Below, one piece after another: positions 1,322 to 19,057 of a stretch of 64,000 nucleotides of DNA (position 1 is the first letter of the stretch; every line of letters starts with the position of its first letter). The stretch spans positions 1 through 64,000 of the forward strand of contig NZ_JARESG010000007.1 of the NCBI RefSeq assembly GCF_029076445.1, read 5' to 3'. The stretch comes from Pseudarthrobacter naphthalenicus (GTDB lineage Bacteria > Actinomycetota > Actinomycetes > Actinomycetales > Micrococcaceae). The translations under genes were made by a program, and so were the position numbers. The notes beneath the pieces were generated by a model. It was not told the DNA's origin and made no database searches. It worked only from the letters and a program-made list of their open reading frames with translations.

Positions 1322-1438
1322 ATAGAACATAAGTACCCTTGCTGGTTAATTTCAAACGAGTAACCAATCAGCGGGTCCGAGCTGTCGGTATTTTCGGCGT
1401 TATGGCCCGGTCGAAGCGAATGGAAAGAGGTGGGTAGC

Positions 1439-2194: not shown

Positions 2195-2280
2195 GCGCGT
2201 GGATACCCAAAAATCTTTGTAGCAGTTCCTGCGGGGTGGTTGGCCGGTGAATCGGTCAACTGCCCCGCAAGCATTGTTTT

Positions 2281-2294
2281 ATAAGCAGGCTTAT
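2281..2294. promoter_or_regulatory. Palindrome upstream of the sigma-factor gene
   Basis: ATAAGC-AG-GCTTAT, a perfect 6-bp inverted repeat, lies about 60 bp upstream of the sigma-factor start in the AT-rich stretch 2270-2315. This is where a promoter or operator for that gene would be expected. No exact -35/-10 pair could be assigned. Confidence 0.3.
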
Positions 2295-2354
2295 GATTTC
2301 CTACTTCTAAGTCTTGCCACAGGCTTTCGGACCATCACCCGGAGGACGCTGACA

Positions 2355-3380
2355 ATGCCCGAACTCCTCGCTGTCCTTGCCCGAAATACCGCTCCTTCCC
2401 GCGCGCTGCCCCCGGAGCAGCCCCGGCCGGCCACGCAAGGGCTCCCCGACCAGACACCGCAAATACCTCCGGAGCCGGCGCCGGAAACGCCCGCCCCCAC
2501 CGGAGCGCCCGTCACCACCCAAGCGCCAATCTCCAAAGGGGGAAAGCTCCGGGAAGCCTTTGAAAACGGGCTGGTCCTGGATTACTTGGATCTCGCTGAA
2601 GCGCTGGCCGCACGCTTCGAAGCCCGCGGCCGCGAACGGGCGGATCTGAACCAGGTGGCCTACCTCGGCCTGGTGAAGGCCGCGAAGGGCTTCGATCGCA
2701 GCAAAGGGGACAGTTTCCCCGCCTACGCCGCTCCCACCATCACCGGCGAACTCAAACGGTATCTGCGGGACCGCAGCTGGATGGTCCGGCCGCCGCGGCA
2801 CATCCAGGATTTACGCTCCCGGCTCTTCCGGGCAGAGCCGGAACTCACCCAGGCGCTCGGGCGGACTCCCAAGGTTTCCGAACTTGCCCAACACCTGGAG
2901 GTGGAATCCGGCGAGGTGCTGGAGGCCATCAGCGCTGCCAGCAGCCTCCACCCTGACTCGCTCGACGCCGTCCCTCCCCATGGCGGGGCACTGCCGGCCT
3001 CCGAGGTCCTTGCCTGCGCCGACACGCCCCTTGAACGCTTGGAGGAACTCTCCTGCCTGCGCGTGGCCATGGGGGAACTGAACGCCGCAGACCGGGAGCT
3101 GCTGTACCGCCGGTACTTCTGCGAGGAGACGCAGGTGGAACTCGGCAAGCGGCTCGGCATGACCCAGATGCAGGTTTCGCGGCGCTTGGCACGTGTCCTC
3201 GTGGACCTGCAGCGCCGGCTCCTGGACAGCAGCCGGCCCGTGGAGAACGATCAGGGTTCGGGCGGCAGCCCGGCCGCCGCCAGCAACACATCCTCCACCG
3301 TCACGCCCAGCAACGCCGGATCCGGGCTGTCTGCGAAAGGGTCACCGCGGCGCAGGTCGTCCCGCGTCAAAACCACATGA
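2355..3380 (+). CDS. SigB/SigF-type alternative sigma factor
   Basis: 341 aa from ATG 2355, with GGAGGA at 2341-2346, 8 nt upstream; a longer in-frame extension to 2247 lacks a ribosome site. After a Pro-rich head of about 55 residues, region 2 is clear (DLNQVAYLGLVKAAKGFD, then FPAYAAPTITGELKRYLRD), followed by the W-x-VRPPRHIQ region 3 start and a region 4 HTH (ETQVELGKRLGMTQMQVSRR). This is the architecture of the stress/sporulation sigma-B/F/G group, which directs RNA polymerase to stress promoters and is normally held by an anti-sigma factor. No anti-sigma gene adjoins it. The last 45 or so residues are low complexity and are read from the antisense strand of the converging glycosyltransferase gene, a 3' overlap of about 130 bp. 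Confidence 0.85.
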   Translation: MPELLAVLARNTAPSRALPPEQPRPATQGLPDQTPQIPPEPAPETPAPTGAPVTTQAPISKGGKLREAFENGLVLDYLDLAEALAARFEARGRERADLNQVAYLGLVKAAKGFDRSKGDSFPAYAAPTITGELKRYLRDRSWMVRPPRHIQDLRSRLFRAEPELTQALGRTPKVSELAQHLEVESGEVLEAISAASSLHPDSLDAVPPHGGALPASEVLACADTPLERLEELSCLRVAMGELNAADRELLYRRYFCEETQVELGKRLGMTQMQVSRRLARVLVDLQRRLLDSSRPVENDQGSGGSPAAASNTSSTVTPSNAGSGLSAKGSPRRRSSRVKTT

Positions 3381-4222
3381 GGGCCAGGAGGCGGACCCCA
3401 GCGTCCGGGGCCAACCGGGCCGAAAAGAACAATCGAGGGGCGGCCGTAGGCAGAGGCCAGATGTGCCGCCCCGGTGTCGGCAGAGATGACCAGCCTCGCG
3501 GCAGCAACGCAGGCGGCGAACTCCCGCAGCTGCAGGCTGCCCGCCAGCACGGCGCTGCCCGCTAATCCGGCCTGGTCACAGATTTCCAGTGCGCGCCGGC
3601 GCTCTTGGCTGCTTCCGGTAAAAACGACGCGGTGGCCGTTGTCAGACAGGCGCCTGGCCACCATGGCAAACCGGTCTGCCGGCCAAAGCCGGCTGGCAAA
3701 GGCCGCACCCACATGGATCACGGTTGCACCGGCAACCCGTGCCGCTATCGGGGGGACGTCCAGGTTCACGTCGTGGGGGTCGGCGGCGATCCCGTGCCAT
3801 TGCAGGAGGCGGGTCCATCTGGCGCGCTCGTTGAGGTCTTCCACCCAGCCCGGCCCGTCCACGCCCCTGCCATGGTGCGCCACGACCAGCCTGGGTCTGA
3901 CCTCCTGGAGCAAGGCTGTGCTTTGCGGGCCCTTGCCATGGAGATTAACGGCGATATCCACTGATCCGCGCGGAAGGGGGAGGGGCTCATCCAGGCCGCG
4001 GACAGGCAGCAGTCCATAACCGCCCACCAGCTCAACAGCATCGGACAGCCATTCAGGGGACGCGTAGAGCAGGTGATGGTGCGGGAAGGCCCTGCGCAGG
4101 GCATGCAAGGCGGGAACAGCGACGAGGAGATCGCCCAGACCCAGGGCACGGAGCACTACCAGGCGGGGACGGGCACCGCCGCCTTCCGTGGTCTGCGGCG
4201 ACATCACTGCACGCGGCAACAT
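3251..4222 (-). CDS. Glycosyltransferase family 9 (heptosyltransferase family)
   Basis: 323 aa from ATG 4222, which has GGAGG 8 nt upstream (a GTG sits one codon earlier). It shows the GT9 two-domain layout: LRALGLGDLLVAVPALHALR at the N-terminus (the G-x-GD acceptor-side loop), a central linker, and a nucleotide-sugar-binding C-domain with IHVGAAFASRLWPADRFA and the signature ISADTGAAHLASAYGRPSIV-like segment. GT9 enzymes typically move heptose from ADP-heptose to an acceptor. It diverges from the GmhB/GT9 operon at 4344 across a 121-bp gap and converges on the sigma-factor gene with a 130-bp overlap. First of three GT9 genes in this cluster. Confidence 0.85.
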   Translation of the reverse strand: MLPRAVMSPQTTEGGGARPRLVVLRALGLGDLLVAVPALHALRRAFPHHHLLYASPEWLSDAVELVGGYGLLPVRGLDEPLPLPRGSVDIAVNLHGKGPQSTALLQEVRPRLVVAHHGRGVDGPGWVEDLNERARWTRLLQWHGIAADPHDVNLDVPPIAARVAGATVIHVGAAFASRLWPADRFAMVARRLSDNGHRVVFTGSSQERRRALEICDQAGLAGSAVLAGSLQLREFAACVAAARLVISADTGAAHLASAYGRPSIVLFGPVGPGRWGPPPGPHVVLTRDDLRRGDPFADSPDPALLGVTVEDVLLAAAGLPPEP

Positions 4223-4343
4223 CACACTGCCCTCCCTGGGAACGCCACGATGCCCCTGCGATGAGGCCCGTTCCGAGGAGTCTATTCCGGGGAAATGCCC
4301 GGTGGCTTGTTTAGGAACTGCCCCGCCGGGGAACTACGTCCAT

Positions 4344-4880
4344 ATGGGAAGCTCCGTAACATCGCAGCTCAGGGCTGTCCTGTTCGACCGGGACGGCACC
4401 TTGGTGGTTGACGTCCCCTACAACAGCGACCCCGGCATGGTGCGTGCCATGCCCGGGGCCAAAAGCGTGTTGGATTCCCTCCGTGCCCGGGGCCTGGCAG
4501 TAGGAGTCATCAGTAATCAGTCCGGCGTCGCAAGAGGCATCCTTACCGAGGCCGACGTGGCCGGCGTCAACGCCAGGGTGGAGGAACTCCTGGGCCCCTT
4601 TGACGTGTGGGAGGTGTGCTTCCACGGGCCTTCCGACGGCTGCGCGTGCCGGAAACCTGAGCCCGGGATGGTGCACAGCGCCTGCCGGCGCCTGGGAACC
4701 CACCCCTCTGAGGCAGGGCTGGTCGGCGACATCGGCAGTGATCTCGGGGCGGCCGAGGCTGCGGGAGCCCGGGGAGTTTTGGTGCCCACCCAGGTCACGC
4801 GGTCCGAGGAAATCACCGCAGCAAAGCTGGTGGCACGGGATCTGGCCGGGGCAGTGGACCTGCTACTGGGCGGTGCCTGA
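4344..4880 (+). CDS. gmhB: HAD phosphatase, GmhB-like (heptose 1,7-bisphosphate 7-phosphatase family)
   Basis: 178 aa. HAD motif I is DRDGTL with the extra Asp typical of this family, motif II is SNQSGVARG, and motif III includes RKPEPGM. Between II and III is C-F-H...C-A-C-R-K-P, matching the zinc-binding loop (C-x-H...C-x-C) that marks GmhB proteins. The family removes the 7-phosphate from D-glycero-D-manno-heptose 1,7-bisphosphate. ATG 4344 was chosen because the HAD fold begins directly after it; the in-frame extension upstream overlaps the divergent gene and has no fold. Its TGA overlaps the next ATG (TGATG). It is the first gene of a tightly coupled operon of six ORFs running to 10347. 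Confidence 0.82.
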   Translation: MGSSVTSQLRAVLFDRDGTLVVDVPYNSDPGMVRAMPGAKSVLDSLRARGLAVGVISNQSGVARGILTEADVAGVNARVEELLGPFDVWEVCFHGPSDGCACRKPEPGMVHSACRRLGTHPSEAGLVGDIGSDLGAAEAAGARGVLVPTQVTRSEEITAAKLVARDLAGAVDLLLGGA

Positions 4881-5980
4881 TGGGCCGGGTTCTGGTGGCC
4901 CGGCTGGACAGCCTGGGCGATGTACTGCTGGCGGGCCCGGCCGTGCGCGCCGTGGCCAACGGTCGGCAGCCCGACGGGAGCCAGCCCAATTACGTGGTGA
5001 TGCTTTGCGGCCGGCAGGGCGAAACTGCAGCGGCGATGCTGCCCGGCGTGGGGGAGGTCTACAGCTGGGACAGCCCCTGGATCATGAACCCCGCGCCGCA
5101 GATGACCCGCCCCCATGCCGACCGGCTGATCGATTATGTGCGCAACTCCCGGATCACCGAGGCCGTCATCCTGACCTCCTTCCATCAGTCCCCGCTGCCG
5201 CTGGCACTGCTGCTGCGGCTGGCGGGCGTGGAGCGGATCAGCGGCGCCTCCACCGACTATGCGGGCTCCCTGCTGGACGTCAGGCTCAGGCCCGGCGAGG
5301 ACATTCCGGAGGACCAGCCCGAAGCTGAGCGGGCCCTGGGGATCGCGCGGGCAGCCGGCTTCCAGCTGCCCCGCGGGGACGACGGGAAACTCCGGGTGCA
5401 TTCCGTTCCGGACGTCACGGAGCTGGTGGGGGAGAGACCTTACGTGGTGGTTCATCCCGGCGCAGCCGTTCCCGCCAGGGCCTGGCCGCCGCTGCATCAC
5501 GCCGCCGCCGTGGAACTCCTGGCCGGAGCAGGACATCGCGTGGTGGTGACCGGCGGGCCGGCCGAGATGTCCCTGACCGCCACCGTGGCCGGACCGTCGG
5601 CACAAGACCTTGGCGGCCGCACGGACCTGCGCACCCTTGCCGGCGTCCTGGCCGGCGCTGACGCGGTGGTGACGGGAAACACCGGGCCGGCCCACCTGGC
5701 CGCAGCTGTGGGAACACCGGTGGTGTGCCTGTTTTCCCCCGTGGTCCCCGCCGTCCGCTGGGCCCCGTACGGCGTCCCGCTGGAGCTGCTGGGAGACCAG
5801 AATGCTGCCTGCCGCCTGACCCGGGCGAGGATCTGCCCGGTCCCCGGGCACCCGTGCCTGGATTCGGTGTCTCCGGAAGACGTGATGCAGGCGGTGGAAC
5901 GCCTGATCGGCGGCGTGGCTTCCCTCAGCACGCACGCGAGCACCCGGCTCGGCACGCGCAGAAAGGACCGCAGCCCATGA
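4880..5980 (+). CDS. Glycosyltransferase family 9
   Basis: 366 aa. The N-terminal motif VARLDSLGDVLLAGPAVRAV and the C-terminal VVHPGAAVPARAWPPLHHA and VVTGNTGPAHLAAAVGTPVV segments are the usual GT9 hallmarks. Length fits the family (about 320-390 aa). The start overlaps the GmhB-like stop by one base, and the stop overlaps the next start (ATGA), so it should be made from the same mRNA. The probable role is transfer of a heptose or related sugar onto a cell-envelope acceptor at the cytoplasmic face; the donor is inferred from the neighbours. Confidence 0.85.
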   Translation: MGRVLVARLDSLGDVLLAGPAVRAVANGRQPDGSQPNYVVMLCGRQGETAAAMLPGVGEVYSWDSPWIMNPAPQMTRPHADRLIDYVRNSRITEAVILTSFHQSPLPLALLLRLAGVERISGASTDYAGSLLDVRLRPGEDIPEDQPEAERALGIARAAGFQLPRGDDGKLRVHSVPDVTELVGERPYVVVHPGAAVPARAWPPLHHAAAVELLAGAGHRVVVTGGPAEMSLTATVAGPSAQDLGGRTDLRTLAGVLAGADAVVTGNTGPAHLAAAVGTPVVCLFSPVVPAVRWAPYGVPLELLGDQNAACRLTRARICPVPGHPCLDSVSPEDVMQAVERLIGGVASLSTHASTRLGTRRKDRSP

Positions 5981-7035
5981 GGATCCTGTTGTGGCACGTC
6001 CACGGATCATGGACCGACGCGTTTGTCCGCGGCAGCCATGAGTACCTCTTCCCGGTGCTCCCCGGGGGCGGACCCTGGGGCTTGGGCCGGGCAGGCAGGG
6101 ACTGGCCGGACTCCGTCCGGGAGGTGGCGCTGGCGCACCTCGACGCGGACGCGATAGACGCCGTCGTGCTTCAGCGGCCGGAGGAAATCGGGGAGGTGGC
6201 AGAACGGCTCGGCCGCCGTCCCGGCGGTGACCTTCCTGCGGTGTTCGTGGAACACAACACGCCAAAGGTGAATTTCCCGTTCAGCCGGCACCCGCTGGCT
6301 GACCAGGACAGCATTCCGGTGGTGCACGTGACGCACTTCAACAAGCTCGCCTGGGACACCGGGCGGGCCCCGTCGCTGGTGGTGGAACACGGCATCCCGG
6401 ACCCGGGCCACCTGTACACGGGCGAACTGCCGGAGCTGGGCGTCGTGGTGAACGAGCCCGTGCGCCGGGGACGGGTGACCGGAACGGACCTGCTGCCGGC
6501 GTTCGCTGCCGTGGCCCCGGTCCATGTGTTCGGGATGAAGACCGAAGGCCTGGCCGCCGCCGCCGGGTTCGAAACCTCCCGGCTCCGTCTCCGCGGTGAC
6601 CTCAAACCCCGCGAGCTCCACCGCGAACTGGCCCGCTGCCGGGTCTATGTCCACCCCATGCGCTGGACGTCGCTGGGGCTGTCCCTGCTGGAAGCCATGC
6701 ACCTGGGCATGCCGGTCCTGGCCCTCGCCACCACGGAAGCACCCCGGGCGGTCCCGGCGGAGGCGGGCACGGTATCCGCCGACGTCGGGGAGCTCCTCCA
6801 CACCGCCCGGCGCCTCCTCGCCAATCCGGAGGAGGCCCGGCGGCGGGGTACTGCGGCGCGTGAAGCGGCCCTCGCACGCTACAGCCTGGGCAGGTTCCTG
6901 GCTGACTGGGACGCGGTCCTTGCCGAGCTGCGGCCCCGGCGTCTGGCCAGCAGAAGCCCGGGTGACGGCGAACCGGCCAGTGAACGTCAGGAAGAGCAGA
7001 TCCTTGTTCCGGCGCGAGAGAGGAAGTCCCCATGA
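5977..7035 (+). CDS. Glycosyltransferase (GT4-like)
   Basis: 352 aa from ATG 5977, overlapping the preceding stop in ATGA. The N-terminal half is a Rossmann-type acceptor domain (MRILLWHVHGSWTDAFVRGS). The C-terminal half has the GT4-type donor region, with DLKPRELHRELARCRVYVHP and SLGLSLLEAMHLGMPVLALA containing the E-x7-E-like position. It lacks a clear GPGP-type N-terminal loop and is more divergent than its downstream neighbour. Donor and acceptor are unknown. The stop overlaps the next start. Confidence 0.75.
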   Translation: MRILLWHVHGSWTDAFVRGSHEYLFPVLPGGGPWGLGRAGRDWPDSVREVALAHLDADAIDAVVLQRPEEIGEVAERLGRRPGGDLPAVFVEHNTPKVNFPFSRHPLADQDSIPVVHVTHFNKLAWDTGRAPSLVVEHGIPDPGHLYTGELPELGVVVNEPVRRGRVTGTDLLPAFAAVAPVHVFGMKTEGLAAAAGFETSRLRLRGDLKPRELHRELARCRVYVHPMRWTSLGLSLLEAMHLGMPVLALATTEAPRAVPAEAGTVSADVGELLHTARRLLANPEEARRRGTAAREAALARYSLGRFLADWDAVLAELRPRRLASRSPGDGEPASERQEEQILVPARERKSP

Positions 7036-8282
7036 GAATCTCCATGGTTTCAGAACATGCCAGCCCGCTGGCCGCGCTGGGCGGAGTGGACGCCGGTGGC
7101 CAAAACGTCCACGTTGCAGCATTGTCGGAGGCCCTCGCCGCCCGGGGCCACAGCGTCACCGTCTACACCCGGCGCGACGCACCGCAACTGCCCCGGCGGG
7201 TGCCGGTGGGCCCACGGCTCGAGGTGGTCAACGTGGACGCCGGGCCTGCCCGCCACATCCCCAAGGATGAGCTGCTCCCGTTTATGGGGGCTCTCGCGGA
7301 CGGCATCGCCACGGACTGGGGCCAGCAGCCGCCGGACGTGGTCCACGGCCATTTCTGGATGTCGGGTCTCGCGGCGCTGGACGCTGCCGGGCGGTATGCG
7401 GGCTTCCGGATCCCGGTGGTCCAGACGTTCCATGCGCTGGGCACCGTCAAACGCCGGCACCAGGGCGCCGATGACACCAGCCCGCGGGAGCGCCGCTGGC
7501 TGGAACCGGGCGTGGGACGTTCCGCTGACCGGATCATCGCCACCTGCCCGGATGAAGTTTTCGAACTCCGGGCCATGGGCATCGACACGGCCAAGGTATC
7601 CGTTGCGCCGTGCGGCGTGGACCTTGGACTTTTCACGGCCGACGGGCCGGCCGCCCCGCGGCCGCGCAGCCACCGCATCCTCTCGGTGGGGCGCCTGGTG
7701 CCCCGCAAGGGCGTTGACCTGGTGATCCGTGCGCTTCCGCAGCTCGCCGCGGCGGGCTATGACGACGTCGAACTCCTGATCGTGGGCGGCGGTGCCGAGG
7801 CGGGGCTGCTGGAGTCCGATCCGGAGGTGCGCCGCCTCCTGGCGTTGGCCGCGGAACTCGGTGTCAGGGACAAAGTGACCCTGCTGGGCCACGTGCCCCG
7901 GGCTGAGATGCCGGCGATTTTCCGCAGCGCTGACGCCGTGGTGTGTGCCCCCTGGTACGAGCCTTTCGGGATTGTCCCGTTGGAAGCAATGGCGTGCGGG
8001 GTCCCCGTGGTGGCTGCCGCCGTCGGTGGCCTCCGCGACACCGTCGTGGACGGCGGCACGGGGATCCACGTCCCGCCGCGGGATCCGCAGGCCATCGCCT
8101 CCGCGCTGACACGCCTGCTCGGCGAGCCCGCACTGCGCGCAGAACTGGGCGCGGCCGGGCAGCGGCGCGCCCGCTCACGCTATTCATGGCAGCGGGTGGC
8201 CGCCGAAACCGAAAAGGCATACGAACTGGCGGTGGCGGCAATGCCCGCCGGGCAGGTCCGGATGGAAGGAGTTGCGCTGTGA
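7032..8282 (+). CDS. Glycosyltransferase family 4, MshA-like
   Basis: 416 aa. The N-terminal loop GGVDAGGQNVHVAALSEAL is the family's sugar-phosphate acceptor loop. The middle carries HGHFWMSGLAAL and VQTFHALG. The C-terminal donor domain has ILSVGRLVPRKGVDLVIRAL, CAPWYEPFGIVPLEAMACG (with the E-x7-E pair) and VVAAAVGGLRDTVVDG. Closest families are actinobacterial MshA/sucrose-phosphate-synthase-like GT4 enzymes, but in this context it probably builds the same glycan as the surrounding GT9 proteins, not mycothiol. ATGA overlap with the upstream gene; its TGA overlaps the GTG start of the isomerase gene. Confidence 0.82.
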   Translation: MRISMVSEHASPLAALGGVDAGGQNVHVAALSEALAARGHSVTVYTRRDAPQLPRRVPVGPRLEVVNVDAGPARHIPKDELLPFMGALADGIATDWGQQPPDVVHGHFWMSGLAALDAAGRYAGFRIPVVQTFHALGTVKRRHQGADDTSPRERRWLEPGVGRSADRIIATCPDEVFELRAMGIDTAKVSVAPCGVDLGLFTADGPAAPRPRSHRILSVGRLVPRKGVDLVIRALPQLAAAGYDDVELLIVGGGAEAGLLESDPEVRRLLALAAELGVRDKVTLLGHVPRAEMPAIFRSADAVVCAPWYEPFGIVPLEAMACGVPVVAAAVGGLRDTVVDGGTGIHVPPRDPQAIASALTRLLGEPALRAELGAAGQRRARSRYSWQRVAAETEKAYELAVAAMPAGQVRMEGVAL

Positions 8283-8968
8283 CTGCCGAATGGTCCATCC
8301 GGGAGCAGGACCTGCAGACGCTGACCGCGGACCCGGCGTTTCCTGCCACACTGCCCGGACTGGCGGCGGACAACGCCGCGGCAATGGACGCCGTCCACGT
8401 CCACCTGGACAACGTCCTTCCCGCGCTGGATTCGCTCCGCAGCCAGGCCGGCCGGCTCGCCGCCTGGGGCGTGGAACTGGCGAACCGGCTGCTCAGCGGT
8501 CAGCGGCTCCTGGCCGCAGGGAACGGCGGATCCGCCGCTGAGGCACAACATTTCACCGCGGAACTCGTGGGCCGGTTCGATGGTGAACGCCTCCCGTTTT
8601 CCGCCATCGCGCTGCACGCGGAAAGTTCCGCCGTGACCGCCATCTCCAACGACTACGGCTACGAGGAGGTGTTCGCCCGGCAGGTCCAGGCCCACGGCCG
8701 CATCGGCGACGTGCTGGTCCTGCTGTCCACCAGCGGCAACAGCCCCAACCTGCTCCGCGCGGTGGAAGCGGCCGGACGCGTGGGCATCACCACCTGGGCG
8801 CTCACCGGTTCCGGGCCCAATCCGCTCGCCGCTGCCTGCGACGAGGCGGTCCTGATCGATGCGGTCAACGCCAACGCCCAGGAAGGCCATCTGATCGCGT
8901 TGCATGCACTCTGCCGGGCCTTTGACTTGGAGGTCCGTCGCCGGGCCTCGGGGATGGGGCTGCCATGA
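8279..8968 (+). CDS. gmhA: SIS-domain phosphoheptose isomerase, GmhA-like
   Basis: 229 aa from GTG 8279, with AAGGAG 7 nt upstream. A helical N-terminus of about 75 residues precedes a SIS domain with AAGNGGSAAEAQHFTAELVG (the GmhA signature, including Q-H and E for metal and substrate), LSTSGNSPNLL (phosphate-binding loop) and AQEGHLIALHALC (the conserved Q/E/H helix). GmhA converts sedoheptulose 7-phosphate to D-glycero-D-manno-heptose 7-phosphate, the first committed step of nucleotide-heptose synthesis. The C-terminus overlaps the following kinase start in ATGA. Placement next to GmhB- and HldE-like genes supports the call. Confidence 0.82.
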   Translation: MTAEWSIREQDLQTLTADPAFPATLPGLAADNAAAMDAVHVHLDNVLPALDSLRSQAGRLAAWGVELANRLLSGQRLLAAGNGGSAAEAQHFTAELVGRFDGERLPFSAIALHAESSAVTAISNDYGYEEVFARQVQAHGRIGDVLVLLSTSGNSPNLLRAVEAAGRVGITTWALTGSGPNPLAAACDEAVLIDAVNANAQEGHLIALHALCRAFDLEVRRRASGMGLP

Positions 8969-10347
8969 GGATCGTTGTGGTGGGTGACGCGATCCTGGAC
9001 GTAGACCTCTGCGGTGAAGCCACCCGGCTCAGCCCCGACGCGCCCGTCCCCGTGGTGGATGTCTCCACCGTCAGGCGGCGCGCCGGGGGCGCCGGACTTG
9101 TCGCCCGGATGCTGGCAGAGGACGGCTGGCCGGTCACCTTGGTCACCGTGCTGGCGGACGACGACGCCGGGCGGCATGTGGAATCCGCGCTCGCCGGGGT
9201 GAAGGTGGTGGCAGGTCCAAGCGCCACCCCGACGCCTGTCAAGACCCGCGTGCGGGCAGGGCACCAGGCAGTGGTCCGTTTTGATGAGGGCTGCGGACCG
9301 CCGGAGGCGCCGGAAACCACCCCTGCCATGCTCCGGGCTGTGGCCAAGGCCGGTGCCATCATTGTGGCCGATTACGGTCGCGGCCTGGCGGGCAACCCGC
9401 AACTCCGGGAACTGCTGGAGCGGATGGCCGACGACGTGCCCATCGTCTGGGACCCGCACCCCTCCGGCGCCCGCCCCGTCCCCGGCGTGGCAGTGGTGAC
9501 GCCCAACCTCGCGGAAGCTCATCAGGCCGCGGGCACCCGGACCGGTGGCCCCTTCGGACCGCCGCGTGCGGACGGCGCCGGCGGTGTCGCCGCCATCCTG
9601 CTGGACGATTGGCACAGCCGCGCGGTCCTGGTCACCACCGGAGAGAAGGGCGCCACGCTGCTGCTCGAACGGGACCGCACACCCCGCCCCATCCTGGCGC
9701 CGCGGGTAGTGGCCGCCGATCCCTGCGGAGCCGGGGACAGGCTGGCCGCGAGCATCGCCGCCCACCTGCTGCAGGGGCGGGACCTTGAGGACGCTGCCGT
9801 GCTGGCCGTCCACGAGGCAGCCGAATTCCTGGCCGCCGGCGGAGTGGCCTCGCTGCCGGACCGGCACGGCAACGGAAAGTTCCGGCGGCGGCCCGCGGAG
9901 CCGCTGCTGCTGGTTCGCCGGGTCCGGGACAACGGCGGCAAAGTGGTGGCCACGGGCGGCTGCTTCGACCTGCTCCACGCCGGCCACGTCAGGTCCCTGG
10001 CCGCTGCCCGGGAACTGGGTGACTGCCTGGTGGTGTGCCTGAACTCGGACGCATCCGTACGCAGGCTGAAGGGCGAGCAGCGTCCCATCATGGCCGAGCA
10101 GGACCGGGCGGAGCTGCTGCTGGCCCTGGAATGCGTGGATGCGGTCATGATCTTCGACGAGGACACCCCGGAAGCCGCCCTGCAGAGGCTGCGCCCCGAC
10201 ATCTGGGTCAAGGGCGGCGACTACAACGGTGAACATCTGCCCGAAGCGGAGCTGGTGGAGAGCTGGGGCGGGCGCTGCGTCACCGTCCCCTACTATCCGG
10301 CCCGCTCCTCAACCCTCCTTGCAGAGGCCCTCGCGAAAGTCAGCTGA
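8965..10347 (+). CDS. hldE: Bifunctional HldE-like sugar kinase / nucleotidyltransferase (first copy)
   Basis: 460 aa. Residues about 1-300 are a PfkB/ribokinase-type kinase: VVVGDAILDVDLCGEATRLS at the start, and the catalytic GAGD in DPCGAGDRLAASIAAH. Residues about 320-460 are a cytidylyltransferase-like domain with GGCFDLLHAGHVRSLAAARE (the HxGH motif), LNSDASVRRLKG and WVKGGDYN. In HldE these domains make heptose 1,7-bisphosphate and then ADP-heptose (after GmhB). Both catalytic motifs are present, so both activities are plausible. The kinase half is shorter and more divergent than in the second copy at 14017. Last gene of the coupled run. Confidence 0.8.
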   Translation: MRIVVVGDAILDVDLCGEATRLSPDAPVPVVDVSTVRRRAGGAGLVARMLAEDGWPVTLVTVLADDDAGRHVESALAGVKVVAGPSATPTPVKTRVRAGHQAVVRFDEGCGPPEAPETTPAMLRAVAKAGAIIVADYGRGLAGNPQLRELLERMADDVPIVWDPHPSGARPVPGVAVVTPNLAEAHQAAGTRTGGPFGPPRADGAGGVAAILLDDWHSRAVLVTTGEKGATLLLERDRTPRPILAPRVVAADPCGAGDRLAASIAAHLLQGRDLEDAAVLAVHEAAEFLAAGGVASLPDRHGNGKFRRRPAEPLLLVRRVRDNGGKVVATGGCFDLLHAGHVRSLAAARELGDCLVVCLNSDASVRRLKGEQRPIMAEQDRAELLLALECVDAVMIFDEDTPEAALQRLRPDIWVKGGDYNGEHLPEAELVESWGGRCVTVPYYPARSSTLLAEALAKVS

Positions 10348-10408
10348 CCTCTCACGCCGATTCCTCAACAGCTCCACCCCCGGAGCCAACCCCATTGGAA
10401 GGAACACC

Positions 10409-11110
10409 ATGAACACTGACTCATCCTGGCCCGGCCGGGTCCTGGTCACGGGAGGCGGCTCCGGGCTTGGCGCCGCCGTCGTTGATGCCGTGCTCAAAGC
10501 CGGCGGGACACCGGTGGTCCTTGACCGCGATATCAGCACGGTGTCCGGCGTCAAGGCCTTTGAGGTGGACGTTGCGGACCGGGCCGCGGTGGAGCAGACC
10601 GTCCGGGAAGCGGCGGAGTCCCTGGGCGGGCTGGATGCCGTGGTCACGGCGGCGGGCATCGACCGCTGCGGCAAACTGGCCGATGTCGCGGCGGAGGAAT
10701 GGGAGAAGGTGGTCGGCGTCAACCTGCTGGGCACCGTCTCGGTGGTCCGGGCGGCGCTGCCTTATCTCAAGAGCTCGCACGGCCGGGTGGTGACGGTGGC
10801 ATCCACGCTGGCTAAGCGGGCGGTGGCTGATGCCACGGCCTACTGTGCGTCCAAGTTCGGCGTACTCGGCTTCACCCATGCCCTGGCGGCGGAGACGGCC
10901 GGGGAGATCGGTGTGACGGCCATGATCCCGGGCGGCATGAAGACCCACTTCTTCGATGACCGGACCGAGCAGTACCGGCCACAGGACGATTCCCGCCTGA
11001 ACAGCCCCGGCAACGTGGCCCAGGCCATTTTGTTTGTGCTGGCCCAGCCGCAGGGCTGCGAGGTCCGGGAGATGCTGATCTGCCACGCGGAGGAAGGATC
11101 CTGGCCGTAA
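10409..11110 (+). CDS. Short-chain dehydrogenase/reductase
   Basis: 233 aa from ATG 10409, with GGAAGGA 5 nt upstream. Classical SDR features: TGGGSGLGAA (NAD(P)-binding glycine motif), TAAGID (NNAG equivalent), TVAST and YCASKFG (the Ser-Tyr-Lys triad). It begins 61 bp after the HldE-like gene, same strand. It is not of the HldD (extended SDR epimerase) type: it is short, and the active site is the classical YxxxK. It may reduce or oxidise a sugar intermediate of the pathway; the substrate is unknown. Confidence 0.8.
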   Translation: MNTDSSWPGRVLVTGGGSGLGAAVVDAVLKAGGTPVVLDRDISTVSGVKAFEVDVADRAAVEQTVREAAESLGGLDAVVTAAGIDRCGKLADVAAEEWEKVVGVNLLGTVSVVRAALPYLKSSHGRVVTVASTLAKRAVADATAYCASKFGVLGFTHALAAETAGEIGVTAMIPGGMKTHFFDDRTEQYRPQDDSRLNSPGNVAQAILFVLAQPQGCEVREMLICHAEEGSWP

Positions 11111-11140
11111 CGCGCCCGTCTTCACGGCCCGCTGTGCGGT

Positions 11141-12322
11141 TCACAGCCCCAACAGGCTGCGGACGTCCACGTACACGTCCTCCCACCGGATTCCGGCCAC
11201 CAGCGAATCGTTGTGGGGGCAGCGCGGAGCCGTCCAGCCAACCTGTGTGACGTCCGCGCCGCACACGGGGCAATGTGTCACCCAGGAAAGGTGGACCCGG
11301 TGCCGCCCGCGCCCCAGGGGCCCGGAGGTCAGGGCGTTTCCGGCCCAATAGATGCCTACGGTAGGGGCACCGAGTGCCTGCGCCAGGTGACGGGGACCGC
11401 TGTCATTGGCCAGCACCGCATCCGCGCGCGCCAGCAGTGCGGCCAGTTCGCCGAGCCCCAGCCTGCCGGCCACGGAGGACACCCGGCTTCCGCCGGCGGA
11501 ACGGCCGCCCGTGGAAGGACCTCCCGTGGAACGCCCTCCGGTGGAACGCCCTCCGGTGGAACGCCCGACGGCGGCACTCACCACGGCGGCCGCCAGTTCC
11601 GTTTCGGTGTGGTCACCGATCACCACAACCGTGGCGCCGTCGTAGGCTGCTGCCTTGGCGACTGCCCCGAAACTCTCCGCCGGCCAGTGCCGGCGGAGGT
11701 CCGTGGCGCCGGGATGAAGCACCAGGAGCGGCCGGTCCGTCCGCGGCAGCGCGGCGCCCAGCAGGGCCGGGAGCCCGGCCACGAACTCCGCCCGCGGGTT
11801 CAGCCGCGCCTCCAGCAGGACCGGCGGGGCCCCGGCCAGCCCGGCAACTTCCAGGGCACGGGTGGGTTCGTGCTGGTAATACGTGTACGGCAGGGTGCGT
11901 TCCAGGGGCTCGGCGTCCGGGGTCGCGGAGCCCACCGTGTGCCGCGCCCGGACCTGCAGCAGGAACGGGTTGGAGAACCGTCCGCCGCCGTGAAGCTGCA
12001 CGGCGAGGTCGAACTGCCGTGCCCGGGCCGCGCCGAAGAAGGTGGCCAGGGCGGCCGGATCCTCGGGGCCGGGCCGGACACCTTCGGCAGCGGGCAGCAC
12101 CATCACATCGTCCAGGGGCGTGTGGGTGGCGGCCAGGAGGGCTTCATGGGCGGGCGTGCCCAGCAGGGTCACTGCACTGCCGGGATAGGCCGCCTTCAAG
12201 GCGGACACGGCAGGAAGGGCAAACATCAGGTCGCCGAGTCCGCCGCCGCGCAGCAGCGCGATCCGCGAAACCCCGGCAAACCTCTCCAGCACCGGTCCCA
12301 CGCCGCCAACGGTTCGTTCCAT
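11141..12322 (-). CDS. Glycosyltransferase family 9 with internal pentapeptide repeats
   Basis: 393 aa; GGGAGGGG lies just upstream of ATG 12322. N-terminal LLRGGGLGDLMFALPAVSAL, central LVLHPGATDLRRHWPAESFG and C-terminal VLANDSGPRHLAQALGAPTV mark a GT9 enzyme. The C-terminus has a Cys cluster (HCPVCGAD...APRCPHND), as in some GT9 proteins. Between the two halves of the donor domain are five copies of a five-residue unit (RSTGG and variants), encoded by 15-bp tandem repeats at 11490-11564; this loop is absent from the other two GT9 proteins here. Convergent with the SDR gene, divergent from the ALDH gene. Confidence 0.85.
   Translation of the reverse strand: MERTVGGVGPVLERFAGVSRIALLRGGGLGDLMFALPAVSALKAAYPGSAVTLLGTPAHEALLAATHTPLDDVMVLPAAEGVRPGPEDPAALATFFGAARARQFDLAVQLHGGGRFSNPFLLQVRARHTVGSATPDAEPLERTLPYTYYQHEPTRALEVAGLAGAPPVLLEARLNPRAEFVAGLPALLGAALPRTDRPLLVLHPGATDLRRHWPAESFGAVAKAAAYDGATVVVIGDHTETELAAAVVSAAVGRSTGGRSTGGRSTGGPSTGGRSAGGSRVSSVAGRLGLGELAALLARADAVLANDSGPRHLAQALGAPTVGIYWAGNALTSGPLGRGRHRVHLSWVTHCPVCGADVTQVGWTAPRCPHNDSLVAGIRWEDVYVDVRSLLGL
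11490..11564. repeat. 15-bp tandem repeat, five copies, inside the GT9 gene
   Basis: Five tandem 15-bp units with consensus CCTCCGGTGGAACGC on the + strand, the last two identical and the others with a few changes. The unit length is a multiple of three, so changes in copy number would alter loop length without breaking the frame. Confidence 0.85.
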
Positions 12323-12523
12323 GCGCTGCCCCTCCCGTGCTGCCGGCCACCTGGCTCACGCCTGCGCCTGGCCATGCGCCCACGCTTGTTCTCCAGCCTG
12401 TGGTGCCACCCTACGGATGCCGGGCACCGCTGGCTACACATGGATTCTGTGCCCGAATCCGGCGTGTAAACATCCTCTCCCGGGGTACGGGACCGCAAGG
12501 AGAAGTACGTACGGAGGAGATCC

Positions 12524-14020
12524 ATGCATACCACCGCCACACCCACGCCGCCCGCCGCCCGGCAGGTTGACGGCCCCGGACTGACCATCACCGATCCCCG
12601 CACCGGGGAGTATCTGTGGTCCATCCCCGAGGCCGGACCGGACGAGGCGAATGACGCCATCCGGATTGCCCGGAACGCGGCCGCCGGCTGGGCCGCGGTG
12701 GGGCCGGCGGAGCGGGGTGCCGCGCTCCGGAAGGCGGCACGGGCCCTTGACGCAGCGGCGGAGGAACTGGCGGGCCTCAACAGCCGCGAAACCGGACGCC
12801 CGTTTCAGGAGGCGCTCGCCGGAATCGCGGCCGGGGTGTCCACGCTGGAGCAGTATGCCGAGATCGGCCCGTTGCACCGGGGACACAGCCTGCTCGGCAG
12901 CAGGTCCGCCTCTGACTACACCGTTGCCGAACCCCGGGGTGTGGCGGTGCTCCTCACTCCCTGGAACGATCCTGTTGCCGTGGCCTGCGGCCTCATCGGC
13001 GCGGCCGTGGTCACCGGCAACACCGTGCTGCACAAACCGAGTGAACGCTGCCCCCGGCTCGGTGAGGTCCTGGGGGCGGTGCTGACGACGGCATTTCCGC
13101 CCGGGGTCCTGCAGACTGTGTCCGGCGGGGCCGGTGTGGGCACCCTCCTGACCCGGGCCGGCGTCGACGTTATTGCGCACGTGGGATCCAGCGCCTCGGG
13201 CACCCTGATCGCCGGCGCCGGGGCTCAAACGGGGGCCCACGTGATCCGCGAAAACGGCGGGAACGATCCCTTGGTGGTCGACCGGGATGTGGACCCGGTC
13301 TGGGCGGCCGAGCAGGCTGCCATCGGTGCCTTCAGCAACAGCGGGCAGATCTGCACCGCGGTGGAGCGGATCTACGTCCACGAAGCCATCGCGGCCCGTT
13401 TCTGTTCAGCCCTGGAGGCCGAAGCGGCGCTCCGCAACCACAACGGCAGCGTGGCCCCGCTGGTGGACACCAGGCTCCGGAACAGTGTCCATGCCCAGGT
13501 GTCGGAGGCCCTCGAACAGGGTGCGCGGGCGGTGGAGGGCGGTGTTGTTCCCGAGGGGCCGGGCGCCTTCTACCCGGCCACGGTCCTGCTCGAGTGCACC
13601 GACGCCATGCAGGTCATGACGGAAGAGACCTTCGGTCCGGTGGCTGCGGTGCGGGTTGTTCCCACGTTCGAGGACGCGCTGCGGCTGGCGGGCAGTGGGC
13701 GCTACGGCTTGGCCGCCACCGTCCTGACAGGCAGTATCGCCCACGTCCAGAAAGCCATTGCGGCCCTCCCGGTGGGCACTGTGAAAATCAACGAGGTGTT
13801 TGGCGGTGCGCCGGGCGGATCAGCTCAGCCCCGGGGAGTCAGCGGCGAGGGGTTCGGCTACGGCCCGGAACTGCTGGATGAATTCACCCGGGTGAAGGTG
13901 GTGCATGTGGCCGCGCCGCCGTCTTTTGCCCTGCACCTGCCGGACGAGCCGGCGCCGGAACCGGTGCCGGCCGAGCAGATGGCGGAACAGGTGCAGGACC
14001 CGAACGGGAGCCCGCAATGA
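12524..14020 (+). CDS. NAD(P)-dependent aldehyde dehydrogenase
   Basis: 498 aa, preceded by a strong GGAGGAGA. The ALDH superfamily fold is clear: PWNDPVAVACGLIGAA (PWN cofactor motif), KPSERCPRLGEV, the general base Glu243 in RENGGNDP, and the catalytic Cys277 in NSGQICTAVERI; the late motif EETFGPVAAVRV is also present. The ENGG form replaces the more common ELGG. It opens a two-gene unit with the second HldE-like protein, whose ATG overlaps this stop (ATGA). In this cluster it may oxidise a sugar or amino-sugar aldehyde; the substrate is not predictable. Confidence 0.85.
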   Translation: MHTTATPTPPAARQVDGPGLTITDPRTGEYLWSIPEAGPDEANDAIRIARNAAAGWAAVGPAERGAALRKAARALDAAAEELAGLNSRETGRPFQEALAGIAAGVSTLEQYAEIGPLHRGHSLLGSRSASDYTVAEPRGVAVLLTPWNDPVAVACGLIGAAVVTGNTVLHKPSERCPRLGEVLGAVLTTAFPPGVLQTVSGGAGVGTLLTRAGVDVIAHVGSSASGTLIAGAGAQTGAHVIRENGGNDPLVVDRDVDPVWAAEQAAIGAFSNSGQICTAVERIYVHEAIAARFCSALEAEAALRNHNGSVAPLVDTRLRNSVHAQVSEALEQGARAVEGGVVPEGPGAFYPATVLLECTDAMQVMTEETFGPVAAVRVVPTFEDALRLAGSGRYGLAATVLTGSIAHVQKAIAALPVGTVKINEVFGGAPGGSAQPRGVSGEGFGYGPELLDEFTRVKVVHVAAPPSFALHLPDEPAPEPVPAEQMAEQVQDPNGSPQ

Positions 14021-15660
14021 CCCGGGCGGAGGCAACCGGGGCCGGCGATCTTTTCAGCGAGCGCGGCCTCTCCGGCGAGCGCGCCCTCTCCGGCGAGCGC
14101 GGCCTCTTCGACGAGCGCGCCCTCTCCGACGAGCGCGCCCTCTCGGGCGGCCTGCCGCGCCGGCTTGCCGCCGAACGGCCCGCCATCCTGGTGGTGGGGG
14201 ATGTGATGCTGGACGGCTGGTGGAGCGGCACCATCGAACGGCTCTGCCGCGAGGCACCCGCTCCGGTGGTGGACATTGCCACGCGCGCATTCGCCCCGGG
14301 CGGTGCCGCAAACACGGCGATGAACCTGGCCGCCCTCGGAGCCTGGGTATCGGTGGCCGGCATCATCGGGGCAGACGACGCCGGGGCCACCCTGCGCCGG
14401 CAACTCGAATCAGCCGGCATCGACGTGACGCACCTGCACTCCCATCCGGACATGGTCACCACCACCAAGATCAGGATCAGCAGCGGGGGTCAGGTGATGC
14501 TGCGGATCGACGACTCCGCCAGGGCTGTCCCGGCCGACGCGCTGGCCGGGCTGGCGGCCTCGGTGCGCTCCGCCGTCGGCGACCAGGACGCCGTCGTGGT
14601 GTGCGACTACGGTACCGGCGTCCTGGCCGATCCCGTCCGGATTGCCCTTCAGGAGACGCTGGCGGGGGACGGGGCGTACACAGCCGGGGGTGCCGCCGTC
14701 GGCCGCCCCCTGACAGTGGTGGATGCGCACGATCCCCATCCCTGGGCCCGGCTGCGGCCGGACCTGGCCACACCCAACGCCCTGGAGGCTGCCCGGTTGC
14801 TGGGTCTGCGCCTGCCGGAAGGCCCCGGCCGGGTGGATGCCCTGGCCGGGCACCGGGAGGCCCTGTTGACGGCAACGGGGGCGGAGGCGGTGGTGGTGAC
14901 GCTGGACAAGGACGGGACTGCGCTGTTCACGGCCGACGGCGGGACTCACCGCACGTGGGCCCGGCCGGCAGCGGAGAAGCAGGCGTCCGGCGCGGGTGAC
15001 ACGTTTGTGGCCGCCCTGACCCTGGCCAGGTCGGTGGGCCTCCCGCTGACCACCAGCCTTGATCTTGCCCAGGCGGCTGCGGACGTGGTGGTGCACCAGC
15101 CCGGAACCTCCGTCTGCAGTACGGCCCAGCTTGGCCGGCACCTGGAGAGCTTCGCCGACACCGTCCTCGGCGCGGACGAACTTGCGCTGCAGCTGGCCGC
15201 GCACCGGGCCCGGGGCCAGCGGATCGTGCTGACCAACGGGTGCTTCGACGTGCTGCACAGCGGCCATACCCGGTACCTGAACCAGGCCAAACAGCTGGGC
15301 GACGTGCTGGTGGTCGCGCTGAACAGCGACGCCTCAGTCCGCAGGCTCAAGGGCCCGGGACGGCCCATCAACCCCGGGGCTGACAGGGCAGCGGTGATCG
15401 CCGCCCTCAGCTGCGTGGACTACGTAACCATTTTCGACACCCCCACGGCCAGCCCGCTGATCACGCAGATCAAACCGGACATCTACGCCAAAGGCGGTGA
15501 CTACACGCCGGAAATGCTGGCGGAGACCGGCGCCGTGGAGGAATACGGCGGACGCGTGGCCATCCTGGACTATGTGGCGGACCGCTCCACCACCGCCGTC
15601 GTCCACCGGATCCGCGCCGGCGTGGGGGGAGAGGTCTCCGAGGCCGCGGATCCAGGGTGA
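14017..15660 (+). CDS. hldE: Bifunctional HldE-like heptose kinase / nucleotidyltransferase (second copy)
   Basis: 547 aa. Residues about 12-42 are five six-residue repeats (SGERAL-type), then a PfkB kinase domain with LVVGDVMLDGWWSG, APGGAANTAMNLAALGA, VVCDYGTG and the catalytic KQASGAGDTFVAAL. A nucleotidyltransferase domain from about residue 405 has LTNGCFDVLHSGHTRYLNQA (HxGH), LNSDASVRRLKGPGRP and IYAKGGDYTPE. It is closer to canonical HldE than the copy at 8965 (same domain order, full motifs). The extra repeat head is unlike the family's usual start; the ATGA overlap with the ALDH stop supports the GTG-free start at 14017. Two complete HldE-like genes in one cluster is unusual. Confidence 0.85.
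   Translation: MTRAEATGAGDLFSERGLSGERALSGERGLFDERALSDERALSGGLPRRLAAERPAILVVGDVMLDGWWSGTIERLCREAPAPVVDIATRAFAPGGAANTAMNLAALGAWVSVAGIIGADDAGATLRRQLESAGIDVTHLHSHPDMVTTTKIRISSGGQVMLRIDDSARAVPADALAGLAASVRSAVGDQDAVVVCDYGTGVLADPVRIALQETLAGDGAYTAGGAAVGRPLTVVDAHDPHPWARLRPDLATPNALEAARLLGLRLPEGPGRVDALAGHREALLTATGAEAVVVTLDKDGTALFTADGGTHRTWARPAAEKQASGAGDTFVAALTLARSVGLPLTTSLDLAQAAADVVVHQPGTSVCSTAQLGRHLESFADTVLGADELALQLAAHRARGQRIVLTNGCFDVLHSGHTRYLNQAKQLGDVLVVALNSDASVRRLKGPGRPINPGADRAAVIAALSCVDYVTIFDTPTASPLITQIKPDIYAKGGDYTPEMLAETGAVEEYGGRVAILDYVADRSTTAVVHRIRAGVGGEVSEAADPG
14053..14142. repeat. 18-bp tandem repeat, five copies, at the 5' end of the second hldE-like gene
   Basis: Five in-frame 18-bp units encode SERGL, SGERAL, SGERGL, FDERAL, SDERAL-type hexapeptides. 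The codon choice is nearly constant between units, which points to recent duplication and not to slow sequence convergence. Confidence 0.85.
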
Positions 15661-15700: not shown

Positions 15701-16600
15701 ATGGCGAAGCGCGGCAAGTCAGGCGGCAGGACCAGCGGACAGCGTTCGACGGCGGGCGTCGTCGACGTGCCCAAGGGGACCCGCCCGGACGGTCCCGTGG
15801 AGGGCGTCTACTACATTGATACCGGCGACTGTGAGCTGATCGCGGACCAGGACAACTCGAACGGCTGGCTGCTGAAGATCAACGGGGTGATGAGCTCCCA
15901 CATCGATCTCGCAGATCCCCTGTTCCTGGACTTCGAGTACATGCGCTGGATGGCCGCGCTCATCGAATCCCGCTGGCCACCGAAGGCCGGCGAAAAGCTG
16001 CGCGGCCTGCACCTGGGCGGCGGCGCCTGTTCCCTGGCCCGCTACTTCCACACGGCCTACCCGGACGCCCGCCAGGTGGTGGTGGAGCTGGACGGCAAGC
16101 TGGCCGAGTACGTCCGCGGCTGGTTCGACCTTCCCAAGGCGCCGCTGCTCCGGCTGCGGGTAGGGGAGGCGCGGGAGGTCACCGAAACGCTGACGGCGGA
16201 CACCCGCGATTTTATCATCCGGGACGTCTTCGCCGGCTCCCTGACACCGCGGCCGCTCACCACGGCCGAATTCACGGAGCACATCAAACGGGTGCTCGCG
16301 CCCGGCGGCATCTACGTGGTCAACTCGGGCGACGCCCCGGACCTCAAGAATGCCCGCGAGGACGCCGCCACCATCGCGGCCGCCTTCGAACACACCCTCA
16401 TCATCGCCGATCCCGCCATGCTCAAGGGCCGCCGCTACGGCAACATGGTGATGGCCGGCAGCGACACGCCGCTGGACGGGGATCCGCAGCTGGCCCGCAG
16501 GCTCCTGGGCGGCGCGGTCCCTGCCCATATTTGGAGCGACGAGCAGGTGCGCGCCTTCGCCGCCAACTCACCTGTCCGCCACGACCCGGGAAGTGATTAG
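15701..16600 (+). CDS. Spermidine synthase-like methyltransferase-fold protein
   Basis: 299 aa. A beta-strand-rich N-terminus (about residues 30-80) precedes a Rossmann SAM-type domain with GLHLGGGACSLARYFHTAYP, the acidic loop VVVELDGKLAEYVRGWFDLP and FIIRDVFAGSLTPRPLTTAEF, as in the spermidine-synthase (SpeE-like) family of actinobacteria. Members without polyamine genes nearby have unproven substrates. The N-terminus is very basic (MAKRGKSGGRTSGQRS). It starts 40 bp after the HldE-like gene but its function looks separate. Its TAG overlaps the converging LysR stop by 3 bp. Confidence 0.75.
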   Translation: MAKRGKSGGRTSGQRSTAGVVDVPKGTRPDGPVEGVYYIDTGDCELIADQDNSNGWLLKINGVMSSHIDLADPLFLDFEYMRWMAALIESRWPPKAGEKLRGLHLGGGACSLARYFHTAYPDARQVVVELDGKLAEYVRGWFDLPKAPLLRLRVGEAREVTETLTADTRDFIIRDVFAGSLTPRPLTTAEFTEHIKRVLAPGGIYVVNSGDAPDLKNAREDAATIAAAFEHTLIIADPAMLKGRRYGNMVMAGSDTPLDGDPQLARRLLGGAVPAHIWSDEQVRAFAANSPVRHDPGSD

Positions 16601-17499: not shown

Positions 17500-17542
17500 A
17501 TCTGCAATTGTGCACATGGTTGGTGCCGGATTGGCCATTGAA

Positions 17543-17558
17543 TGCGCAAGTTTGTGCA
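17543..17558. promoter_or_regulatory. Predicted LysR-type operator
   Basis: TGCGCAA-GT-TTGTGCA is an inverted repeat with one mismatch, located between the divergent LysR gene and the transporter. A second TTGTGCA lies at 17508-17514, giving the spaced site pattern usual for LysR proteins. The regulator assignment is inferred from position. Confidence 0.4.
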
Positions 17559-17628
17559 GCAATACTCGATGAAGCCATTAGTGCTGTGGATCACAGCGCG
17601 TGTCAAAGTGGACACTAAGGAGAAACTC

Positions 17629-19011: not shown

Positions 19012-19057
19012 GCCGCCTGAACAGCCCTAACCGCGACGCCTGAAGGAACTGCACACG

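Follow-up and report, generated by a model that had tools for sequence, protein, structure and literature searches.

A putative heptose glycan island of the cwg type beside a stress-type sigma factor gene in Pseudarthrobacter

What would a Gram-positive soil bacterium do with a set of genes for activated heptose when, to our knowledge, actinobacteria have no lipopolysaccharide (LPS)? The question is raised by a 64,000-nucleotide stretch of the 4.56-Mb genome of Pseudarthrobacter naphthalenicus (assembly GCF_029076445.1, contig NZ_JARESG010000007.1, positions 1 to 64,000), referred to here as the window, in which a cluster of gmhA-, gmhB- and hldE-like genes and of genes for GT9 and GT4 glycosyltransferases spans positions 3251-15660 (Table 1). 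A first-pass annotation, made from the sequence alone, had proposed that it makes a heptose-containing envelope glycan. We think it fairly probable that the cluster is a variant island of the type represented by the cwg operon of Streptomyces coelicolor, in which a nucleoside diphosphate (NDP)-heptose is made, transferred and tailored, and that it is switched on under stress by a sigma factor of the SigB/SigF type.

The enzymes named in that annotation, namely GmhA, GmhB, two HldE proteins, three GT9 and two GT4 enzymes, a short-chain dehydrogenase/reductase (SDR) and an aldehyde dehydrogenase (ALDH), were all found where it had placed them. Heptose activation is well supported; in HldE1 and HldE2 alike, the nucleotidyltransferase half exceeds the cut-off (181.5 bits) of TIGR02199, the model for heptose 1-phosphate nucleotidyltransferase. 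The two HldE proteins had been called complete, and both domains are indeed present in each, but only the nucleotidyltransferase halves pass a curated heptose cut-off, while the kinase halves stay below theirs. The three GT9 proteins exceed the Pfam PF01075 cut-off, and their genes are the only GT9 genes found in the genome (four matches, two of which are parts of GT9c). The reported absence of HldD held in a genome-wide profile search, with a best match of 92.7 bits against a cut-off of 274.6, which rules out an HldD encoded elsewhere in the genome; an HldD over the cut-off was found in none of five cluster genomes tested, this one included. The SDR at 10409 had been described, correctly, as unlike HldD: it matches classical SDR models, which excludes it as the missing epimerase. 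Compared with the ADP-L,D-heptose pathway of LPS (GmhA, HldE, GmhB, HldD, WaaC/F), the window shares homologs of GmhA, GmhB, HldE and GT9, but it lacks HldD, has two HldE subfamilies and mostly stays below the equivalog cut-offs. Of the envelope-glycan proposal, the part that is supported is an NDP-heptose route without HldD that feeds GT9 enzymes; the envelope location is plausible, and none of the genes in the cluster codes for a flippase, a polymerase, a transferase acting on a lipid carrier or an LCP protein. An activated form of a seven-carbon sugar is probably produced by the cluster and joined to some acceptor molecule.

How widespread is this arrangement? A query with hldE1 returned 56 named loci, of which Pseudarthrobacter sulfonivorans ALL 8 is the closest (90% identity at hldE1), and tblastn mapping recovers the order gmhB-GT9b-GT4a-GT4b-gmhA-hldE1-SDR in Arthrobacter and Pseudarthrobacter. 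The same order is seen in Micromonospora, with GT9a following the SDR, as a GT9a relative does in other clusters too, and related versions are present in Nonomuraea, Sphaerisporangium and several metagenome-assembled genomes. The SDR follows hldE1 in 54 of the 56 named loci, the other two being a locus that ends at that point (L088) and an unrelated one (L090). An HldE relative at E values up to 1e-40 occurs in 97 of 393 class genomes and 42 of 122 genera, the weaker ones possibly including HldE2-type proteins. The cluster is not a chance assembly, as the named relatives, at identities of about 46-95%, share its gene order, and so do distant families. This class-wide family, which by gene order includes the cwg operon, had escaped the first-pass annotation, and it rules out an orphan Gram-positive cluster.

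Among 35 further regions examined, mostly from other families, 30 have an HldE1-type core and are referred to as core regions; L154 among them belongs to the own family, and a region from Sphaerisporangium is counted twice (L151, L059), while five second HldE loci (L149, L150, L152, L153, L155) are excluded. An hldE2 query hits hldE1 genes as well, and its counts in these regions are disregarded. GT9b and GT4b are found in all 30, gmhA and GT9a in 28 each, gmhB in 26 and GT4a in 24; the SDR is present in 22, an epimerase/dehydratase in 19, and a carbamoyltransferase and a GT2 enzyme in 18 each. The ALDH is present in only nine, against 22 for the SDR, and was therefore dropped as a core enzyme; oxidation of the sugar via the ALDH is possible. 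For the carbamoyltransferase, GT2 and epimerase genes, tblastn gave no match in the window or in 21 named Arthrobacter-group loci, and no carbamoyltransferase was found in the own genome; Micromonospora-type loci are likewise without the carbamoyltransferase, epimerase/dehydratase and GT2 set. Instead, Arthrobacter-group loci carry hldE2 in 20 of 21 cases (it is missing in L053), often along with GT9c and the ALDH. Since in other families the hldE2 relatives lie at separate loci, in three cases with a GT9c relative nearby (L149, L150, L155), the window gives the impression of two sets of heptose genes joined into one. Another family of the order (L143) shows this combined layout too, as do, more loosely, two further regions (L130, L146). 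In the named loci outside the Arthrobacter group, often those of the Micromonospora type, a CrtO/CrtI-like flavin adenine dinucleotide (FAD) oxidoreductase (20 of 35) and a GT2 enzyme (22 of 35) stand beside the core (e.g. L064:2287-4688).

The closest described system is the cwg operon (SCO6179-SCO6190), for which the available part of one report lists a transferase (cwgG), a phosphoheptose isomerase (cwgH), a bifunctional synthase/transferase (cwgI) and a transferase (cwgJ), plus a dehydratase and more transferases (PMC5839063). According to two other reports, it is induced by vancomycin, partly dependent on sigma-E and part of the envelope-stress regulon (PMC6767563), and has a 'putative heptosyl transferase' among its members (PMC5882110). 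Its order of GT4, gmhA, hldE and further transferase genes is met again in the window, where, as in many relatives, an SDR gene follows hldE1; the operon is induced by stress, and the window cluster carries a stress-type promoter-like element. Unlike cwg, the window contains no relative of the carbamoyltransferase, GT2 or epimerase genes, but adds hldE2, GT9c, the ALDH and the SigF-type promoter-like element. By analogy of gene order, we infer that the window cluster is an Arthrobacter-type variant of the family to which this 'putative cell wall glycan' operon belongs. The pathways of septacidin, spicamycin and hygromycin B share the precursor sedoheptulose 7-phosphate in actinobacteria, but belong to specialized-metabolite clusters; NDP-heptoses are intermediates of septacidins and spicamycins according to the accessible text of PMC10948575, which also cites, by its title, a paper on sedoheptulose 7-phosphate as heptose precursor in actinobacteria (Tang et al., 2018). 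In open-licence literature listings, no paper could be recognized as dealing with the Arthrobacter cluster, with the HldE1 residues described below or with a role of SigF/SigB in controlling cwg-type clusters.

The two HldE proteins, noted as a pair in the first-pass annotation, turn out to belong to different subfamilies, which it had overlooked. In an alignment of 79 HldE1 and 27 HldE2 sequences (three of 30 HldE2 rows, of at most 400 residues, were dropped), the two groups split with a support of 1.0. HldE1 has replaced canonical residues in four places, W by D14, N by L45 and the N of a TNG motif by G331 (TGG331) in 79/79 and E by D25 in 76/79, where HldE2 retains the W in 26/27 and the E, the N and the N of TNG in 27/27. 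The residues of the HldE2 type are also found, by alignment, in the chains 4e84 (HldA) and 5x9q; the latter is titled a putative cytidylyltransferase, and we take it to be an HldC. If the Asn that corresponds to L45 contacts the sugar, as in ribokinase-type enzymes, its replacement points to a reshaped sugar pocket. Judged by its sequence, HldE1 is a distinct subfamily, not a dead kinase, as the catalytic Asp of the GAGD motif is kept in 79/79 HldE1 and 27/27 HldE2 proteins. The AlphaFold model of HldE1 (mean predicted local distance difference test, pLDDT, 76.8; predicted template-modelling score, pTM, 0.63) has HldA as its best structural match, suggesting that the kinase fold is intact. In the 13.2-Mb genome of Nonomuraea jabiensis, HldE1 is the sole strong HldE match (177.3 bits; next 70.8), which counts against a loss of heptose use. 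As for the nucleotide, an Arg at the fifth place of the STTR5 motif marks enzymes promiscuous for nucleoside triphosphates, as quoted from Tang et al. (2024) in the available parts of PMC11461863 and PMC11573728. Such an Arg is present in 69/79 HldE1 and 22/30 HldE2 proteins, and in the HldE2 of 30 short family loci (L007-L036) this place is R in seven and H or Q in 23. The window motifs, YYPARSST and YVADRSTT, share the Arg with the STTR5 enzymes, while their other positions depart from (F/L)xxGxSTT and (F/L)xxGRSTT, so that the exact motif is not matched. With the Arg in both proteins, cytidine diphosphate (CDP)- or uridine diphosphate (UDP)-heptose is a possible product.

A link to stress, which had gone unnoticed in the first-pass annotation, comes from two features. 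One is a gene for a SigB/SigF/SigG-type sigma factor that adjoins the cluster. Among the matches listed, 63 family genomes, the own included, were selected by a profile match ending at 138-141 (G006, G028, G052 and G059 are among those left out); in 58 of them, such a gene is less than 12 kb away from hldE1, at a distance of 6.4-8.6 kb, and in the remaining five it is elsewhere in the genome. Among 21 other listed genomes, outside this choice, it lies within 12 kb in five. In the genus, it is present in 12 of 12 genomes with an over-cut-off HldE and in two of 13 without. SigF-type genes are found in six of the 30 core regions, and in a locus of family f11 (L123) a HATPase gene, a STAS gene and a gene for a canonical SigF (465.6 bits, cut-off 372) neighbor the cluster. 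In this locus, GTTT-N15-GGGTA sites precede the GT4a match by 58 bases and the epimerase match by 50.

The other feature is the element GTTTAG-N14-GGGAAC upstream of gmhB, which resembles the SigB/SigF promoter consensus, GTTT...GGG(A/T)A. In the Arthrobacter group, it keeps a distance of 9-10 bases (spacing by eye) to the gmhB ATG, whereas the flanking sequence has otherwise diverged. The pattern GTTTA-N13..17-GGGAA has 46 matches in 91 loci (1.74 Mb), 20 from the Arthrobacter group, 23 from Micromonospora-type loci and three from the 35 further regions, with an expectation of about one per Mb in simulated sequence; all 46 lie upstream of gmhB on its strand, a descriptive footprint rather than a probability, since the pattern was drawn from the same alignments and the loci are related. 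The adjacent sigma factor, we would presume, reads this element. When the window was scanned strictly for GTTT...GGGTA, the only hits were one within hldE2 and one ahead of a leftward gene, and a fixed-spacing scan of the window with one mismatch gave three matches against 4.4 expected. In the available part of a study of SigF in M. smegmatis, the terms glycosyl and heptose are absent (PMC7693655). The site for the leftward gene (181-1239) is a SigB/SigF-type promoter-like sequence (GTTT...GGGTA) at window 1334-1357 on the minus strand, and similar sites are seen in L037 and L040-L043.

The cluster also looks like an accessory island with an empty site. Over-cut-off HldE proteins are present in 12 of 25 genus genomes. 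In a sister genome (G290, locus L158), the left-flank genes and the sigma gene are followed, after 280 bases, by spermidine-synthase-like, LysR and MFS genes in the order of the window, and there is no cluster; in two other loci (L161, L162), both cluster and sigma gene are missing. At 4-16 kb, the G+C content is higher (70-71%) than in both flanks (64-67%), although it also reaches 69.5% at 48-52 kb. To the right of the island, at window 15701-19825, lies a block of spermidine-synthase-like, LysR, MFS and 3-hydroxybutyrate-dehydrogenase-like genes, which is kept in three island-less genus genomes (L158, L161, L162). In L038, a DDE transposase gene (16804-18363) lies where the island ends on the right, flanked by hldE2 and the spermidine-synthase-like gene.

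What the sequence shows are enzyme families in a conserved order, a promoter-like element, linkage to a sigma gene and the lack of HldD; enzyme activities, nucleotide, acceptor and product location would follow by inference. In the pathway that we propose, GmhA would convert sedoheptulose 7-phosphate to heptose 7-phosphate, and together with HldE and GmhB would yield NDP-D,D-heptose. GT9 and GT4 enzymes would work on a common acceptor, the former adding the heptose, to build a glycoconjugate, and the SDR, here along with the ALDH, would tailor the sugar. Stress would induce the cluster through a sigma factor of the SigB/SigF type, probably encoded by the adjacent gene. A bolder version, which we put forward tentatively and consider rather doubtful, is that actinobacteria have a glycoconjugate dedicated to stress and controlled by SigF/SigB, whose building block, an activated D,D-heptose or a related sugar, would come from HldE1 as a new HldE subfamily with a remodelled sugar pocket. 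In the Arthrobacter type, the HldE1 and HldE2 loci, which otherwise lie apart, would have come together in a single mobile island, and each cell would provide two different nucleotide sugars for its three GT9 enzymes.

Several observations weigh against the proposed cwg-type, stress-induced heptose island. The kinase halves, GmhA, GmhB and the GT9 proteins (tested with heptosyltransferase I, II and III models) are clear family members, but all fall below the curated equivalog cut-offs, and HldE1 is without the canonical W, E and N motif residues of heptokinases. Among the core regions, gmhA was not found in two (L135, L139) and the SDR not in eight. The likeness to SCO6179-6190 was drawn from annotation, and cwg is read by an extracytoplasmic function (ECF) factor, sigma-E. 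The promoter-like element, besides being a descriptive footprint, is missing from most other-family regions (present in only 3/35) and is not enriched in the own genome, with seven matches against five for a reversed control. Finally, no lipid-carrier, flippase, polymerase, ligase or LCP gene is present in the cluster.

The last point bears on the nature of the product. An envelope glycan is plausible. Alternatively, and possibly, though we hold it to be unlikely, the heptose is still activated but ends up in a small glycoside that is soluble or secreted and serves as a stress solute or specialized metabolite. Agreeing with this, no product of the cluster looks like a membrane protein in a simple hydropathy scan, and no flippase, polymerase or LCP was recognized among the neighbor genes common to at least three of 39 loci, in a family search that covered part of the neighbors. 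Furthermore, the nearest solved structure to GT4b is Tll1590 (6kih, 225.7 bits), followed by the MshA-type 3c4q (186.1 bits), enzymes that we take to act on small, phosphorylated acceptors, and the NDP-heptose intermediates of septacidin and spicamycin offer a precedent. However, the number of glycosyltransferases (three GT9, two GT4) suggests a product of several sugars, conservation across the class is unusual for a specialized metabolite, and the cwg operon belongs to an envelope-stress regulon. ABC-transporter ATPase genes occur in five of 39 loci examined. Three LCP genes lie elsewhere in the own genome, so that the product may be attached to the wall.

It is less probable again, and in our view improbable, that HldE1 is no heptokinase and activates another sugar phosphate, NDP-heptose being supplied here by HldE2 only. 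The invariant or near-invariant replacements at D14, L45, TGG331 and D25, with canonical residues in HldE2, 4e84 and 5x9q, and the fully supported split of the subfamilies are what would be expected of such a change, but gmhA accompanies hldE1 in nearly all core regions, HldE1 stands alone in N. jabiensis, and it retains the catalytic Asp and a best structural match to HldA. That the cluster is a decaying or non-functional foreign island we regard as very improbable: its G+C content, its patchy presence in the genus, the empty site in the sister genome and the transposase gene at its end in L038 are in keeping with foreign origin, but the reading frames are open, and the catalytic residues, promoter-like element and gene order are conserved.

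What appears to be new here are the gmhB promoter-like element with its sigma linkage, the HldE1 subfamily and the accessory island with its empty site. NDP-heptose enzymes across kingdoms and the sensing of their products by ALPK1 are already in print, as seen from the available parts of PMC11461863 and PMC11573728. The latter raises the question of what producers use NDP-heptose for, which would become directly testable in the window: it holds a compact version of the cluster in a soil genus, with a candidate regulator adjacent and an empty-site relative as natural control, and the four diagnostic residues make the substrate of HldE1 testable.

Table 1. Features of the window, with the matches on which their assignment rests
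Feature	Position	Strand	Basis
SigB/SigF/SigG-type sigma factor gene	2247..3380	+	TIGR02980 208.2 bits (below cut-off 234.35); Pfam sigma-70 regions 2, 3, 4 over cut-off
GT9a glycosyltransferase (heptosyltransferase family)	3251..4225	-	PF01075 86.2 bits
SigB/SigF-type promoter-like element	4309..4334	+	upstream of gmhB; alignment of relatives
gmhB-like HAD-IIIA phosphatase	4344..4880	+	HAD-IIIA and histidinol-phosphatase models over cut-off, GmhB models below
GT9b glycosyltransferase	4880..5980	+	PF01075 82 bits
GT4a glycosyltransferase	5977..7035	+	PF13692, PF00534, PF13524 over cut-off (longer frame 5725-7035)
GT4b glycosyltransferase, MshA-like	7032..8282	+	MshA model 260.6 bits, cut-off 462.5
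gmhA-like sedoheptulose 7-phosphate isomerase (SIS)	8279..8968	+	TIGR00441 147.5 bits, cut-off 209.45
hldE1, divergent kinase/nucleotidyltransferase	8965..10347	+	TIGR02199 188.4 bits, over cut-off; PfkB and cytidylyltransferase domains
Classical SDR	10409..11110	+	PF00106 141.6 bits on frame 10229-11110
GT9c glycosyltransferase	11141..12322	-	PF01075 77.9 bits
ALDH	12524..14020	+	PF00171 336 bits
hldE2, canonical-type kinase/nucleotidyltransferase	14017..15660	+	PRK11316 357.9 bits (cut-off 521); TIGR02199 195.6 bits, over cut-off; PfkB and cytidylyltransferase domains

Gene calls outside the window were made with our own codon-score script and are approximate. Within it, the start of gmhB is most likely the ATG at 4344, whose position is kept in aligned relatives, and that of gmhA the GTG at 8279 (codon checked). 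The GmhB-like protein has a short C-x-H...C-x-C loop. The nearest solved structures are phosphoheptose isomerases for the GmhA-like protein, and the GT9 structure 3tov and the heptosyltransferases 1psw and 2gt1 for GT9b. The SDR found general SDRs only, among 60 structures listed, and the ALDH had no match in the PDB at E 1e-60. Two of the proteins contain low-complexity segments: in GT9c, an STGGR-type insertion arises from an in-frame 15-base tandem repeat (5.5 copies, window 11490-11571), and in HldE2, an in-frame 18-base tandem repeat (5.2 copies, window 14057-14149) gives rise to a repetitive N-terminal tail, which is shorter in five aligned relatives.

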